Assembly: GCF_014197855.1 (NCBI RefSeq)
Contig: NZ_JACIGJ010000013.1
Span: forward strand, 62,001-126,000
DNA length: 64,000 nt
DNA from: Roseospira marina
Lineage (GTDB): Bacteria; Pseudomonadota; Alphaproteobacteria; Rhodospirillales; Rhodospirillaceae
Reading direction: 5' to 3'
The position numbers and the translations under genes were made by a program. Below, piece after piece: positions 20,261 to 27,182 of the stretch. The notes beneath the pieces were generated by a model. It worked only from the letters and a program-made list of their open reading frames with translations. It made no database searches and had not been told where the DNA came from. Position 1 is the stretch's first letter; each line of letters opens with the position of its first letter.

Positions 20261-22594
20261 CTATGGCACCGTCCCATGTCCCCGCTCTGCGTCTGGCCGT
20301 ACGATCTCAGAGGCGGCGGACACCGAGGACCGGGCGTCTATGGCCCGGACCAGATACGGCCCGGTGACCGAACGGGGATCGTCCATCAGCCCGGCCGGGC
20401 CTCCTTGATAGATCACGTGGCCCCCGTGTTTCCCGGCCCCCGGACCCATTTCAATCACATGATCCGCCGCCGCGATCATATCGAGATTGTGTTCGACGAT
20501 GATCAGGGTGAGGCCTTGATCCAGAAGAGCCCTGAACATCGCGATCAGCCGGGCGACATCGGCCATGTGCAGGCCGGATGTGGGCTCATCGAACACGTAT
20601 ATGCGCCCCGTGCGACCGAGTTCGCCCGCCAGCTTCAGCCGCTGCCGCTCGCCCCCGGACAATGTCGACACCCGTTGCCCGATCTGTATGTAACCCAGCC
20701 CCACCTGGTCCAGTCGAGCGAGGGCCTCCGAAATCCGCCGATGACCGCCGAACACCGCGCGAAGCTCTGAGGCGCGCATGTCCATGATCTGATCGATCGC
20801 GTAACCCGCGACACGAATGGACCGGGCTTCGGCCGAGTAGCCCGACCCCGCGCACGCCTCGCAGGGCGCTTCAACGGCATCAAGAAACGCGAGATCGGTT
20901 TTGACCACGCCACGTCCCTTGCACGCCGGACAGGCCCCTGCCGCATTCGTGCTGAAGAGGCCAACGGGCTTGCCGCTCCGGCGCGCGTAGTCCCGCCGGA
21001 CATCGTCCAGAATGCCAAGATAGCTTGCGGCGGTGGAGCGCGAGGAGCCGCGGAGTTCCGACTGGTCTATGACGACGATGTCCGCGCGAAGCCGCGGCAG
21101 GATGCGATTGGCGAGCGTCGACTTTCCGGACCCGGCGACGCCGGCGATCACGGTCATCAGACCCAGCGGGATGTCCACCGACAGGTCATGCACATTGAAC
21201 ATGGATTGGTTGGTGACGTGCACCCAGCCGGACGGCGCACGCGGCGCCGCATTGAGGTGCACGGGCCTGCGAAAACCCCGCCCGGTTTGGGTGTCGGACT
21301 CCTGCAGGCCGGCCACCGCTCCCTGATAGACGACCTGCCCGCCGGCGTGTCCAGAGCCGGGCCCGATGTCGATCACATGGTCGGCGATCGCAATCAGATC
21401 GGGATCATGTTCGACCAACAGAACGCTGTTGCCCTTGTCCCGCAAGCGGATCAGCAGCTGACCAAGATGGTGCACATCGCGGGCGTGGAGGCCGACGCTC
21501 GGCTCATCAAAGATGTAGGCAATGTCCGCAAGGCTGCTGCCGAGATGGCGGATCATCTTTATCCGCTGGGACTCCCCGCCGGACAACCCGGCCGTCCCAC
21601 GGTCCAGGCTGAGATAATCCAGACCGATATCGATCATGCTCTCGAGCTTTTCCCGCAAGGACGAGAGAACCGGTCGCATCTCAGGCTCGTGAACGCCGCT
21701 CAGGAACCCCATGAGATCCGCCGCCTCCATGGCGGCACAGGCGGCAATGTTATGGCCCGCGATGCGACAGGACAGCACGGTCGGGTTCAGACGCGCCCCG
21801 CCGCACGCCGGACACGGCCCCGTCCGCGTGATCCGCTCAAGGGCGTCGCGCTCGGGCTCCGAAAGATCCGACAGGTTGCGGTCCAGAAAGGAGCGTCGCA
21901 ACCGCGGCAGAACGCCTTCGTACACCGTGGTCTTGGGCCAGCCCGGCTTGGGGTCGGTAACGGGCGTCCCCTCGTCCACCGTCAAGCGTATCCACTCCGC
22001 ATCGGAATAGGCGGACAGGGGCTTGGCCGTATCGAAAAAGCCGGACAGGGCGTAGCGCTTCCAGCGCCACGCTCCTGGTTCGAACCCCGGAAACAGGATG
22101 GCGCCGTCGTCCAGCGAGCGCCCACGATCGAACAAGGCCAGCTCGTCGACCACCCGGACCGTCCCGAGGCCTTGGCACTCTGGGCACATCCCGTCCGGGT
22201 TGTTGAAGGAGAACAGGCTCGATTCTCCGATATGAGGCTGGCCAATACGCGAAAACAGCAAGCGTAGGAGGGCATAGATTTCGGTCGCCGTCCCGACGGT
22301 CGATCGGGTGCTCCCGCCAAGCCGACGCTGATCCACGACAATAGACGCCGGCACGTTCTCCAGGCGATCCGCATCCGGCCGCCCCATATGCGGCATCCTG
22401 TTGCGCACGAAGGTCGGATAGGTTTCCGCCAGGTGGCGCTGTGACTCCGCCGCGATGGTATCGAACAAGAGCGATGATTTGCCGGAGCCGGACACACCGG
22501 TGAACACGACAAGATGTCCCTTGGGGATATCCAGGGATACATTTTTGAGATTGTTCGTTCGTGCACGAACAATCCGCATCGCTCCCTTGGTCAT
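20261..22594 (-). CDS. UvrA-like ABC ATPase (DrrC/UvrA2-type, short form)
   Basis: 777 residues, against ~950 for housekeeping UvrA. Two ABC modules are present: Walker A GVSGSGKSS and GVAGSGKST, signatures LSGGESQRIK and LSGGERQRLK, Walker B IFDEPSVGL and FDEPTSGL. Zinc knuckles are CPECQGLG, CPACGGARL and CPACKGRG...CEACAGSGY. The short length and these motifs match the DrrC/UvrA2 group linked to DNA-intercalating drug resistance rather than general excision repair. The UvrB-interaction insert appears reduced. It stands alone between tRNA-Ala and a tRNA-like remnant, which suggests acquisition. No integrase is present. Start at 22594 has AAGG upstream; 22579 is an alternative. Confidence 0.88.
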   Translation of the reverse strand: MTKGAMRIVRARTNNLKNVSLDIPKGHLVVFTGVSGSGKSSLLFDTIAAESQRHLAETYPTFVRNRMPHMGRPDADRLENVPASIVVDQRRLGGSTRSTVGTATEIYALLRLLFSRIGQPHIGESSLFSFNNPDGMCPECQGLGTVRVVDELALFDRGRSLDDGAILFPGFEPGAWRWKRYALSGFFDTAKPLSAYSDAEWIRLTVDEGTPVTDPKPGWPKTTVYEGVLPRLRRSFLDRNLSDLSEPERDALERITRTGPCPACGGARLNPTVLSCRIAGHNIAACAAMEAADLMGFLSGVHEPEMRPVLSSLREKLESMIDIGLDYLSLDRGTAGLSGGESQRIKMIRHLGSSLADIAYIFDEPSVGLHARDVHHLGQLLIRLRDKGNSVLLVEHDPDLIAIADHVIDIGPGSGHAGGQVVYQGAVAGLQESDTQTGRGFRRPVHLNAAPRAPSGWVHVTNQSMFNVHDLSVDIPLGLMTVIAGVAGSGKSTLANRILPRLRADIVVIDQSELRGSSRSTAASYLGILDDVRRDYARRSGKPVGLFSTNAAGACPACKGRGVVKTDLAFLDAVEAPCEACAGSGYSAEARSIRVAGYAIDQIMDMRASELRAVFGGHRRISEALARLDQVGLGYIQIGQRVSTLSGGERQRLKLAGELGRTGRIYVFDEPTSGLHMADVARLIAMFRALLDQGLTLIIVEHNLDMIAAADHVIEMGPGAGKHGGHVIYQGGPAGLMDDPRSVTGPYLVRAIDARSSVSAASEIVRPDAERGHGTVP
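22549..22574. promoter_or_regulatory. Perfect inverted repeat at the start of the UvrA-like gene
   Basis: Arms GATTGTTCG and CGAACAATC (9 bp, perfect) with an 8-bp spacer lie within the first codons of the UvrA-like gene. This is operator-like or a translation-blocking hairpin. It is not the direct-repeat LexA box seen at 51432. Confidence 0.4.
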
Positions 22595-23294: not shown

Positions 23295-23660
23295 CTATTC
23301 GTCGTCGCCTTCGTTGTCGAGGTGGTCGATCACCTCGGCCATGTCCTCGTCGTCCTCGCCGAGGTCCGAGGCGTCCTCGATCATGTCGTCGCGTTCGTCA
23401 TCGCTCGTGTCGTCATGATCACCCAGGTCGGTGTCGTCCAGTTCGGTCTCGTCCACGGACTCCAGGGATTCATCGGGCACGGGTGCCGCTTTCGGCTTTT
23501 TCTCCACCGGCGCCGGCCGAGCGCGGCGAGTCCGGGTGGGCGCCTCTTCCTCATACACCGCCTCGCACTTCGGGCAGATGATGGGCTGGCGCCGCATGTC
23601 GTAGAAGCGGGCTCCGCAAGAGCCGCAGGTTCGCTTGGATCCCCATTCCGGCTTGGCCAC
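23295..23660 (-). CDS. FYDLN-acid family zinc-ribbon protein (TIGR02300)
   Basis: 121 residues. The N-terminus GTKRTCGSCGARFYDM-like segment (here WGSKRTCGSCGARFYDM) and CPKCEAVYEEE give two CxxC pairs that should bind zinc. A Pro/Lys-rich linker and a strongly acidic C-terminal half (Asp/Glu runs from residue ~75) follow. This is the alphaproteobacterial family named for its FYDLN-acid features. Function unknown. It starts at GTG with GGAGG 8 bases upstream, and lies divergent to cmk-rpsA with tRNA-Ala downstream, the usual family setting. Confidence 0.9.
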   Translation of the reverse strand: MAKPEWGSKRTCGSCGARFYDMRRQPIICPKCEAVYEEEAPTRTRRARPAPVEKKPKAAPVPDESLESVDETELDDTDLGDHDDTSDDERDDMIEDASDLGEDDEDMAEVIDHLDNEGDDE

Positions 23661-23923: not shown

Positions 23924-25378
23924 ATGACCGACACCGCATCTGTTCTGCCCTCCCCCGTCGAGACCGAGACGGTTGCCGCCGACACACGCGCGGCCCGCGC
24001 CGCCCTGAACGGACTGGCCGCGCTGCTGGCCACCGCCACCGTCGGTGAAAGCCGCCTGCCGGCGGATGCCCTTGCGGAGGGCCAGGACAGGCTGACGCAG
24101 GCCTTGGGAGCCACGCCGGCGGCGCCCAACGCCCCAGAGGGGCTTCCCGGACTGGCCGGATGCGGCCTCGGCGGCCTGCGCGAACCGGACGCGCCCCTTG
24201 ATCTGCGCGCCCACCCCGCCCTGATCGCGCCCTTGTGCGGCCTGCTCGCCGCGCACGACGGGACGGCCGTCATCTTGGCCGACGCCCTGCCGAAGGGACT
24301 GGTTCCGCTTCTGGAAACCATGGGCGCCGCCGTGCAGGGGGCCGACCACGGCGCCCGTCCGCCCCTGTCGCTGCGTGGGACCCCGACCCTTATGGTGCCG
24401 GCGATGGTCCCGGAGGACCAACCGCACGAACCGGTCCCGCTGGCCCTGGCGCGCCTGTTCGCCGGCCTCGCGTGCCCCGGCCGGACCACGGCCGCCCTGC
24501 CCCCGACGCTGGGCGGTCCCTTGGCCGACCTGCTGGCCGCGTTCGGCATTCCGGTCGCCCTCGCCCCCTGCGGCGCACGGCTGGCGCTGACGGTCACCGG
24601 CGAGGCGGAGACGACGCCCGCGAGCCTTACGGCGGACTGGGTGACGGCCCCGCCCTGGGTCCGAGCCGCGCAGGCCGCCTCCACGGGCGCGATCACCGTG
24701 GCCATCGATGGGCCCGCAGCGGCCGGCAAAGGCACCCTGGCCCGATCGCTGGCGGATGCCCTGGGCCTAGCCTATCTGGACACGGGGCGCCTGTACCGGG
24801 CGACCGGCTACAGCGTTCTGCAAGCGGGCGGCGACCCGTCCGATCCGGCGGCGGCGGAACAGGCCGCGCGGTCCCTCGACACCCGCGTGCTGGCCGATCC
24901 CGCGCTGCGCAGCGAGGCGGCCGGGGATGCGGCCTCCCGTGTGGCGGCCATTCCCGCGGTGCGCGACGCCCTGCTGGCGTTCCAGCGCCAGTTCGCCCGC
25001 ACTCCGCCGGATGGGGCTTGGGGCGCGGTGCTCGACGGCCGCGATATCGGGTCGGTCGTATGCCCGAGCGCACCGGTCAAACTCTTCGTTACAGCCAGCG
25101 CGGAAACCCGGGCGCAACGGCGCTTTCTTGAGTTGCGGGATGCCGGTCAAGACGTTATAGAGTCGCGCATCCTTCAGGACATGAAGGCGCGGGACGCCCG
25201 GGATTCCTCTCGCGGCATTGCGCCGCTTGTGCCCGCGGCTGATGCCGTTGTGCTGGATACGTCCGATCTTGATCGGACCGAGGCGCTCGCCGCCGCGTTC
25301 GCCCTTGCGGGTGATCGCCTGCGGGCCGCCGGCAGCGATGTCGCCCGCGCAAGCATGAGCCACACCGGCGCCTCCTGA
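23924..25378 (+). CDS. cmk: CMP kinase with a degenerate AroA-like N-terminal domain
   Basis: 484 residues. Residues ~257-480 are a full cytidylate kinase: ITVAIDGPAAAGKGT (P-loop 262-270), YLDTGRLYRATGY, LDGRDIGSVVCP and RFLELRDAG. It phosphorylates CMP/dCMP. Residues 1-255 align by eye with the first half of EPSP synthase (AroA): LPADALAEGQDRL for the LLEGEDVL region, GLGGLREPDAPLDLRAHP for G.GGLREP..VLDLGNSGT, then PLSLRG and FAGLACPGRTTA for LLAGLNTPG.TT. The active-site DKSxSHR and NSGT motifs are lost, and the second half of AroA is missing. In many alphaproteobacteria intact aroA precedes cmk, so this looks like a fused, dead remnant kept in frame. An independent internal start for the kinase is possible. 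Confidence 0.85.
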   Translation: MTDTASVLPSPVETETVAADTRAARAALNGLAALLATATVGESRLPADALAEGQDRLTQALGATPAAPNAPEGLPGLAGCGLGGLREPDAPLDLRAHPALIAPLCGLLAAHDGTAVILADALPKGLVPLLETMGAAVQGADHGARPPLSLRGTPTLMVPAMVPEDQPHEPVPLALARLFAGLACPGRTTAALPPTLGGPLADLLAAFGIPVALAPCGARLALTVTGEAETTPASLTADWVTAPPWVRAAQAASTGAITVAIDGPAAAGKGTLARSLADALGLAYLDTGRLYRATGYSVLQAGGDPSDPAAAEQAARSLDTRVLADPALRSEAAGDAASRVAAIPAVRDALLAFQRQFARTPPDGAWGAVLDGRDIGSVVCPSAPVKLFVTASAETRAQRRFLELRDAGQDVIESRILQDMKARDARDSSRGIAPLVPAADAVVLDTSDLDRTEALAAAFALAGDRLRAAGSDVARASMSHTGAS

Positions 25379-25457: not shown

Positions 25458-27182
25458 ATGGCCGAAGCCGCCACCCAGACTCTCGAGTCTGAATCCTTTG
25501 CAGAGAATTTCGAGGCCCTGCTCAACGAGTCCCTCGGCGAGAATGCCTCGCTGGAAGGCACCGTGATCCGGGGCACCGTGATCGCCGTCCGCAACGATCA
25601 CGTTGTGGTCGACGTCGGCCTGAAGTCCGAGGGGCGCGTGCCCTTGAAGGAGTTCACCAAAGCCGGCGAGGACCCCGAGCTTCGGCCCGGTGACACCATC
25701 GACGTGTTCGTCGAGCGCTACGAGGACCGTGACGGCAACATCATGCTGTCGCGCGACAAGGCCCGCCGCGAGGAAGCCTGGAACGAGCTCGAGAAGGCCT
25801 ACAACAACACCCAGCGCGTCAAGGGTCAGATCTTCGGCCGCGTCAAGGGTGGCTTCACCGTCGATCTGTCGGGCGCCATGGCCTTCCTGCCGGGCAGCCA
25901 GGTGGACATCCGCCCCGTGCGCGACGTCACCCCGCTGATGGGCCAGCCGTTCGAGTTCCAGATCCTGAAGATGGACCGCGCGCGCGGCAACATCGTGGTC
26001 TCCCGCCGCTCCGTGCTGGAAGAGACCCGCGCCGAAGAGCGCGCCAAGCTGCTGGAGCGCCTCAAGGAAGGCGAGATCCTGGACGGTGTGGTCAAGAACA
26101 TCACCGACTACGGCGCCTTCGTGGACTTGGGCGGTGTCGACGGCCTGCTGCACGTCACCGACATTTCGTGGAAGCGCATCAACCACCCGACCGAGGCCCT
26201 GAACATCGGCCAGACGGTTCGCGTGCAGGTGATCCGCTTCAACCCGGACACCCAGCGCATCAGCCTCGGCATGAAGCAGCTTGAGGCCGATCCGTGGGAA
26301 GGTGTCGCCGCCAAGTACCCGGTCGGCACGGTCTTCACCGGCCGCGTCACCAACATCACCGACTACGGCGCGTTCGTGGAGCTGGAGCCGGGCGTCGAGG
26401 GTCTGGTGCACGTCTCCGAGATGAGCTGGACCAAGAAGAACATCCACCCGGGCAAGATCGTCTCCACCAGCCAGGAAGTGAACGTCATGATCCTGGACGT
26501 GGATCCGGACAAGCGCCGGATCTCGCTGGGTCTGAAGCAGACCATGGGCAACCCCTGGTCCGACTTCCTGGAGCGCTTCCCGCAGGGGTCCGAGGTCGAA
26601 GGCGAGATCAAGAACATCACCGAGTTCGGCCTGTTCATCGGCCTGCCCGGCGAGATCGACGGCATGGTGCACCTGTCCGACCTGGACTGGAGCCGCTCCG
26701 GCGACGAGGCGGTCAAGGACTACGGCAAGGGCGACGTGGTGCGGGCCAAGGTGCTCGACGTCGACGTGGACAAGGAGCGGATCAGCCTGGGCATCAAGCA
26801 GCTCGGCGATGACCCGTACTCCGCCGCCACGGCCGACCTGCGCAAGGGCCAGATCGTCACCGGTGTCGTGACCCAGGTGCAGGACAACGGCATCGAGGTC
26901 GAGGTCAGTGGTGCGATCGGCTTCATCCGCAAGGGCGATCTGGCGCGCGACCGCGCCGACCAGCGGCCCGAGCGCTTCGCCGTCGGCGAGAAGGTGGACG
27001 CCAAGATCACCAACATCGACAAGGCGAACCGTCGTCTCGGCCTGTCCATCAAGGCCCGCGAGGTCGACGAGGAAAAGCAGGCGATGGCCGACTACGGCTC
27101 GACCGACTCCGGCGCGTCGCTCGGCGACATCCTGGGCGCGGCCCTGAAGCAGGCGCAGCAGGACAAGAACAGCGACTCCTAA
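25458..27182 (+). CDS. rpsA: 30S ribosomal protein S1
   Basis: 574 residues with six S1/OB-fold repeats, the last three carrying repeated ITDYGAFVEL, VHVSEMSW and RISLGLKQ motifs. It binds mRNA on the 30S subunit and unwinds structured leaders. The start MAEAATQ at 25458 has AAAGGAAGA upstream. It follows cmk by 79 bp, the conserved cmk-rpsA order, and ends in a strong terminator. Codon use is markedly biased toward major codons, as expected for a ribosomal gene. Confidence 0.98.
   Translation: MAEAATQTLESESFAENFEALLNESLGENASLEGTVIRGTVIAVRNDHVVVDVGLKSEGRVPLKEFTKAGEDPELRPGDTIDVFVERYEDRDGNIMLSRDKARREEAWNELEKAYNNTQRVKGQIFGRVKGGFTVDLSGAMAFLPGSQVDIRPVRDVTPLMGQPFEFQILKMDRARGNIVVSRRSVLEETRAEERAKLLERLKEGEILDGVVKNITDYGAFVDLGGVDGLLHVTDISWKRINHPTEALNIGQTVRVQVIRFNPDTQRISLGMKQLEADPWEGVAAKYPVGTVFTGRVTNITDYGAFVELEPGVEGLVHVSEMSWTKKNIHPGKIVSTSQEVNVMILDVDPDKRRISLGLKQTMGNPWSDFLERFPQGSEVEGEIKNITEFGLFIGLPGEIDGMVHLSDLDWSRSGDEAVKDYGKGDVVRAKVLDVDVDKERISLGIKQLGDDPYSAATADLRKGQIVTGVVTQVQDNGIEVEVSGAIGFIRKGDLARDRADQRPERFAVGEKVDAKITNIDKANRRLGLSIKAREVDEEKQAMADYGSTDSGASLGDILGAALKQAQQDKNSDS

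Follow-up and report, generated by a model that had tools for sequence, protein, structure and literature searches.

A truncated AroA domain precedes CMP kinase in Rhodospira and Roseospira and is fused to it in four of six genomes

The window analyzed here, a stretch of 64,000 nucleotides of Roseospira marina contig NZ_JACIGJ010000013.1, holds a 484-codon reading frame that ends as a CMP kinase and begins as something less easily named, which raises the question of what the N-terminal 254 residues are, where they came from, and why they are kept in front of a kinase. The C-terminal part is by its sequence a full CMP kinase: residues 259 to 455 match Pfam Cytidylate_kin (PF02224) with an E value of 8.7e-53 and 179.6 bits against a cutoff of 26, the part exceeds the cutoff of the NCBIfam family cmk (TIGR00017; 161.9 versus 135.55 bits), and its predicted model aligns with Escherichia coli CMP kinase (2CMK) in VIA-align with a Z score of 23.7 over 207 residues (rmsd of 2.4). 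For the N-terminal 254 residues there is no Pfam match, with none to PF00275 listed up to an E value of 10, and there are only two NCBIfam matches, NF011381 (E value of 3.8e-8) and TIGR01356 (E value of 0.033), both far below cutoff. On the fused protein TIGR01356 gives 11.5 to 13 bits against a cutoff of 287.25, which does not place it in the AroA family, and the bifunctional AroA-Cmk family NF008816 likewise does not claim it (169.7 bits against a cutoff of 943, from the Cmk part only). PADLOC returned no match. Two antisense open reading frames of 254 and 276 amino acids overlap the fused frame, and a 777-amino-acid UvrA-like protein with two ABC parts, recognized by eye, is encoded at 20261 to 22594 on the minus strand of the window. 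The features of the locus are collected in the table.

Table. Features of the fused gene and its neighborhood (positions within the window)
Feature	Position	Strand	Evidence
Fused gene, EPSP-synthase half-domain and CMP kinase, 484 amino acids plus stop	23924..25378	+	Open frame; orthologues in Rhodospira trueperi (G002), a Rhodospira MAG (G003), and Roseospira navarrensis (G004) likewise in one frame
Half-AroA domain (about residues 24 to 237), EPSP synthase N-terminal globular domain without substrate motifs	23993..24634	+	hmmsearch and hhalign with 14 native AroA, alignment, AlphaFold2 model, Foldseek and VIA-align
Linker (about residues 238 to 256), site expected for the old aroA stop and cmk start	24635..24691	+	Alignments
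CMP kinase part, P-loop GPAAAGKGT	24692..25375	+	PF02224, TIGR00017, VIA-align
FYDLN_acid/TIGR02300 gene, divergent neighbor, marker of the ancestral aroA-cmk locus	23295..23660	-	PF09538, E value of 3.2e-24; TIGR02300, 60.4 bits versus cutoff of 41.65; same position in relatives
rpsA (ribosomal protein S1), next gene in the ancestral aroA-cmk-rpsA string	25458..27182	+	Name from sequence reading and synteny

We searched 40 genomes: that of the window (G000), five others of Rhodospira/Roseospira (treated here as one genus, of purple bacteria), and 34 from outside it. The five are Roseospira visakhapatnamensis (G001), Rhodospira trueperi (G002), two Rhodospira MAGs (G003 and G005), and Roseospira navarrensis (G004). 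The original prediction had read the N-terminal region as the first half of AroA, fused in frame to CMP kinase, and profile searches bear this out. A profile of 14 native AroA sequences from relatives scores the six halves of the genus at 34.9 to 67.6 bits (E values of 2.1e-12 to 2.5e-22), while 3,000 shuffles that keep composition reach at most 8.7 bits, and profile-profile comparison (hhalign) of the halves with native AroA gives a probability of 99.5. The genus also carries an AroA of another type, described below as foreign; descent of the half from that type was rejected, since with a foreign-AroA profile the halves score no more than 5.4 bits, compared with the 34.9 to 67.6 bits of the native profile.

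In the alignment the half begins at about the position of DKSxSHR and ends at the GQPEL strand, before the native PSSAAF stretch. DKSxSHR and NSGT, whose loss had been predicted, are missing from all six halves and present in the 14 native AroA sequences aligned (as NSGT or NAGT); the native RPM, SAQVKS, and TRDHTE stretches are missing from all six as well. The DKSxSHR, NSGT, RPM, SAQ, and TRDH motifs hold the S3P and PEP contacts in AroA. The second globular domain of EPSP synthase, which carries catalytic residues, is also gone, the sequence running into Cmk at the domain boundary, as had been expected of a protein lacking the whole other half of AroA. Across all six halves, 25 of the 101 near-invariant native columns are retained. 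What is kept is mostly glycine, alanine, leucine, and proline, while lysine, histidine, asparagine, and nearly all arginine and serine are lost; counted as native cells retained in the halves, the figures are 0/12 for K, 0/12 for H, 4/36 for R, and 86/126 for G. These observations support the view that the half is a native AroA cut at a domain boundary, and it is, to judge from its residues, catalytically dead.

The half lies directly before cmk in all six genomes of the genus. It shares one frame with cmk in four (G000, G002, G003, and G004), where W239 and W245 of the linker are common to all four, and it is a separate open reading frame just before cmk in two: in R. visakhapatnamensis its stop codon and the start of cmk overlap (ATGA), and in the MAG G005 it terminates at a TGA that lies 17 codons ahead of the cmk ATG. 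The prediction that AroA here is both fused and truncated thus stands, with its order refined: since two members carry the half as a separate, also constrained, frame, the truncation most likely preceded the fusion. The fused frame presumably yields one polypeptide. In-frame starts before cmk exist in the fused members, an ATG 15 codons before DGP in G002 and GTG or TTG near cmk in the others; ribosome-binding matches at these starts are weak, and the computed energies poorly separate likely real from unused starts, so internal cmk starts, and hence some Cmk made without the half, could occur. Outside the genus, 30 of 34 relatives have a native aroA directly before cmk (with at most about 215 bases between them), in keeping with what had been said of alphaproteobacteria, and the FYDLN gene marks the aroA-cmk locus. 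The exceptions are G014 and G016, with an AroA match away from cmk, and G008 and G022, which are undecidable.

The original prediction proposed a search of the genome for a second, intact aroA, and one was found. Besides the fused gene's locus, two PF00275 loci occur in the genome of the window, a MurA and an intact AroA on contig 9 that scores 420.4 bits with TIGR01356 (cutoff of 287.25). Because PF00275 gives only these two, no separate second AroA half was detected, and a split enzyme with its other half elsewhere was rejected. The contig-9 type of AroA is present in all six genomes of the genus at 73 to 84% identity, the window's copy being nearest to that of R. navarrensis (88% over 448 columns); AroA matches in the other 34 genomes (found in 33) are only 30 to 37% identical to it. 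A second AroA-like gene in one genome (G033:C5:52415-53644, L059), present besides the one before cmk, is closer to the foreign type (E value of 2.5e-44) and only 31% identical to it.

A genome scan for the foreign type, built on two short patterns that bound any statement on donor and distribution, returned 54 loci, including five of the genus, one of an unplaced bacterium, seven records of other alphaproteobacteria (57 to 60% identity), 39 of Bacillota (47 to 56%), and two of Muribaculaceae (32 to 33%). The nearest relatives found outside the alphaproteobacteria thus appear to be mostly Bacillota. The AroA tree has 41 rows, among them 32 of the 54 scan loci and 8 of the 14 native AroA sequences; the inner stops of L106 (two) and L110 (one) were read as X. 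In it the copies of the genus are monophyletic (support of 100) and group with those of the other alphaproteobacteria (99), and the eight native AroA stand separate from them (100). Around the five named genus loci and L001, no neighbor of the foreign aroA is shared by at least three, besides aroA itself and overlapping frames.

The half is apparently not an automatic relic of AroA replacement. Eight records from outside the genus were examined, of which that of the unplaced bacterium RSA8 (L106) was set aside; in six of the remaining seven, all alphaproteobacteria with the foreign-type AroA, no AroA remnant was found beside cmk, which adjoins the FYDLN gene, and it is on this ground that we take retention of the half not to be automatic. 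Flanks of up to 1,500 bases were inspected, with larger stretches in four; each of the six has 2 to 4 PF00275 matches, unsorted between AroA and MurA, and a remnant or native aroA may lie farther away. These six records (L088 to L092 and L123) carry Bacillota-like AroA and have the arrangement that a clean loss of native aroA would leave. Two of them are titled Asaia bogorensis and Rhizobium sp. Q54, which is at odds with their position in the tree, where they are adjacent and stand among MAGs whose titles say no more than Alphaproteobacteria or Rhodospirillaceae. The seventh alphaproteobacterium, Arenibaculum pallidiluteum (G047; L125, L201, and L202), has the foreign-type AroA together with a whole native aroA beside FYDLN, its cmk being on another contig; two AroA may coexist in this genome.

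In the family outside the genus, no half-AroA was found among the 60 of 67 genomes with a match (G080 judged by coordinates only). Short frames in G078, G066, G086, and G022 were rejected as halves as they lie at contig ends, and G101 was rejected as a frameshifted whole AroA, its native aroA occupying two overlapping frames before cmk (L193, 3459 to 4902), as by frameshift or assembly error. At the level of the order (248 genomes, 229 with a match), no half-AroA appeared among the rows listed, all open frames given there for non-genus genomes having at least 423 amino acids.

The retained half could be a decaying pseudogene, neutral in itself, its frame kept because stops and frameshifts would cut the fused cmk or unsettle the downstream one. 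Its fast divergence, altered loops, and alanine- and proline-rich replacements would fit such decay. The open frame, from which the original prediction had argued for selection, says little by itself: in this stretch of 76% GC, 1,384 of 5,000 codon-position shuffles and 233 of 5,000 full base shuffles are free of stops, the former being in keeping with a pseudogene and the reason why we rejected the open frame alone as proof. Pairwise codon models (GY94, F3x4), on alignments built at the protein level, reject omega = 1 in all 15 pairs of the six halves (likelihood ratio test [LRT] statistics of 43.0 to 105.5), where omega means only "far below 1" since third positions are near saturation; because the null model forbids stops, it is in effect that of a frame kept open and otherwise free. 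The unfused pair, G001 and G005, in which a stop would not truncate Cmk, gives the value of 105.5. In 72 neutral simulations that kept the composition of the one half they started from, contained no indels, and were aligned pairwise at the protein level and not six-way, the LRT never exceeds 34.0. Simulated pairs with a third-position difference of about 0.45 are about 30% identical in amino acids, against 59 to 61% in G002-G003 and G001-G005 at third-position differences of 0.46 to 0.47. Since the neutral simulations fall short of both the observed LRT and the observed identity, the constraint acts on amino acids, in the fused as in the unfused pair.

The half is thus evidently under purifying selection on its amino acid sequence, and a neutral pseudogene, for which the well-folding six-half model is a further difficulty, is unlikely. 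The constraint is loose, since identity among the genus members is 38 to 61% for the half, compared with 66 to 83% for cmk and 73 to 89% for the foreign AroA. Called vestigial and dead in the original prediction, the half is dead as to catalysis, its sequence still being held by selection in 15 of 15 pairs; selection, inferred there from the intact frame, is upheld by the codon models, and the case that would have told against the prediction, an N-terminal region unconserved in relatives, does not apply to the six genomes. The case rests on homology, fold, and codon-level constraint, to which the open frame adds modest evidence.

Another explanation takes the peptide to be secondary: the half-frame would be kept as a leader that brings ribosomes to cmk by translational coupling. 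The ATGA overlap in R. visakhapatnamensis, which recurs in several native aroA-cmk pairs, is what such coupling would look like. The constraint falls on amino acids, however, with third positions near saturated; the half of G005 ends well short of the cmk start; six other lineages have cmk with no aroA before it; and the fused clade has nothing left to couple. We regard this as quite unlikely.

The original prediction had called for the predicted structure to be superposed on AroA. AlphaFold2 models the half from an alignment of the six halves only, with no native AroA included, at a pLDDT of 81.8 and a pTM of 0.81; as AlphaFold2 was trained on EPSPS structures, it may recall the fold. The best Foldseek match of the model in the PDB is EPSP synthase (E value of 1.4e-11), and the 50 rows listed are EPSP synthases and MurA with the sole exception of a designed hydrolase (4N3P). 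VIA-align places the model on CP4 EPSPS (2GGD) with a Z score of 24.5 over 222 residues (rmsd of 3.3), and on isolated EPSPS N-terminal domains with Z scores of 19.0 over 208 residues (3TI2_A; rmsd of 3.4) and 17.2 (1P88, covering its residues 25 to 240). The predicted model thus has the fold of the EPSPS N-terminal domain. A model of the whole fusion, from a 28-row alignment, has a pLDDT of 89.8 and a pTM of 0.88, with the linker block at a pLDDT of 84 to 92, with its N-terminal part matching EPSPS and its C-terminal part CMP kinase; the pTM suggests a fixed arrangement of the domains.

A kept fold might also serve a regulatory domain that still binds S3P, PEP, or a new nucleotide ligand and so sets CMP kinase activity. 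PDB entry 1P88, by its title, concerns substrate-induced changes in the isolated EPSP synthase N-terminal domain, and for the truncated AroF remnant of Pseudomonas syringae conversion into a regulatory domain has been suggested as a possibility (PMC1173090). The halves do have invariant residues of their own: of the 44 invariant across the six, 28 recur in half or more of the natives and 16 in fewer than half, 12 of the latter occurring in none of the 14. The sole charged residue among these 16 is R44, and the motifs for substrate are gone, which makes ligand sensing quite improbable. Since the fold is kept without newly conserved charged residues, R44 apart, a structural role is favored over a ligand-sensing one. 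That the half acts independently of Cmk, the fusion being incidental, would agree with its constraint where unfused and is very unlikely given its place directly before cmk in 6/6 genomes and its fusion in four.

The reading that we prefer is a well-supported history joined to a more conjectural role. An ancestor of Rhodospira and Roseospira would have had a native aroA directly before cmk and taken up an AroA of another type from elsewhere. The native aroA would have been cut down to one of its two structural domains, with the substrate-binding motifs gone as well. The remaining domain would have persisted as an open reading frame just before cmk, and loss of the stop/start junction in one clade would have joined the half and cmk into one reading frame. 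As to role, adjacency in all six genomes, fusion in four, constraint without fusion, and the confident joint model lead us to infer that the half works together with Cmk, in a structural or regulatory capacity. It may be a non-catalytic structural partner that folds alone and packs against the kinase or holds the kinase's oligomeric or soluble state. Selection would be on its fold, at the outset in a stand-alone protein translated from the transcript it shared with cmk and, after the fusion, in a domain covalently joined to the kinase. For the whole, history and fold-only partner domain of CMP kinase, we put the probability at roughly 0.55. That the displaced enzyme's bare domain, recruited as a non-catalytic Cmk subunit and then fused, now controls kinase assembly or activity by a mechanism unseen in other CMP kinases is a tentative extension.

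Half-enzymes left by gene replacement are usually regarded as debris. The half described here resembles a piece of an enzyme put to new use as a building block, its fold retained while the substrate motifs were lost. Since the stages are preserved in living species (a whole aroA before cmk in outgroups, a half before cmk in two genomes, a fusion in four, and none in other lineages with the same AroA type), the path from a dead enzyme domain to a working part of another protein is directly testable.

In the open-licence literature we found no report of an AroA half fused to Cmk, nor of aroA in Roseospira; several known systems share parts of the arrangement. The bifunctional 3-phosphoshikimate 1-carboxyvinyltransferase/cytidylate kinase (NF008816/PRK11860) also has AroA ahead of Cmk in one polypeptide, but there AroA is whole. 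The structures 3TI2 and 1P88 are of the same EPSP-synthase N-terminal domain, solved alone; to judge from the entry titles, they are pieces cut from active enzymes, whereas the half of the genus is natural and has no substrate motifs. The aroA-cmk-rpsA string of alphaproteobacteria, also stated in PMC1173090, is the same locus with the same flanking FYDLN gene, with AroA complete and separate. Closest is TyrA-AroF of P. syringae, in which a fused EPSP-synthase (AroF) domain is reported to be partly deleted and a separate aroF to have been acquired by probable lateral transfer (BMC Biol 2005, 3:13, PMC1173090); section 23 and Table 5 of that paper place the loss at the N terminus, and section 30 places it at the C terminus. 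A truncated AroA remnant after replacement is thus already in print, and the genus case is a variant with another partner. Both are truncated EPSP-synthase remnants left after AroA replacement; in P. syringae, the one species named there, the partner is TyrA, whereas in the six Rhodospira and Roseospira genomes it is CMP kinase, the N-terminal domain is the part retained, the fusion most likely followed the truncation, and selection on the remnant has been measured.
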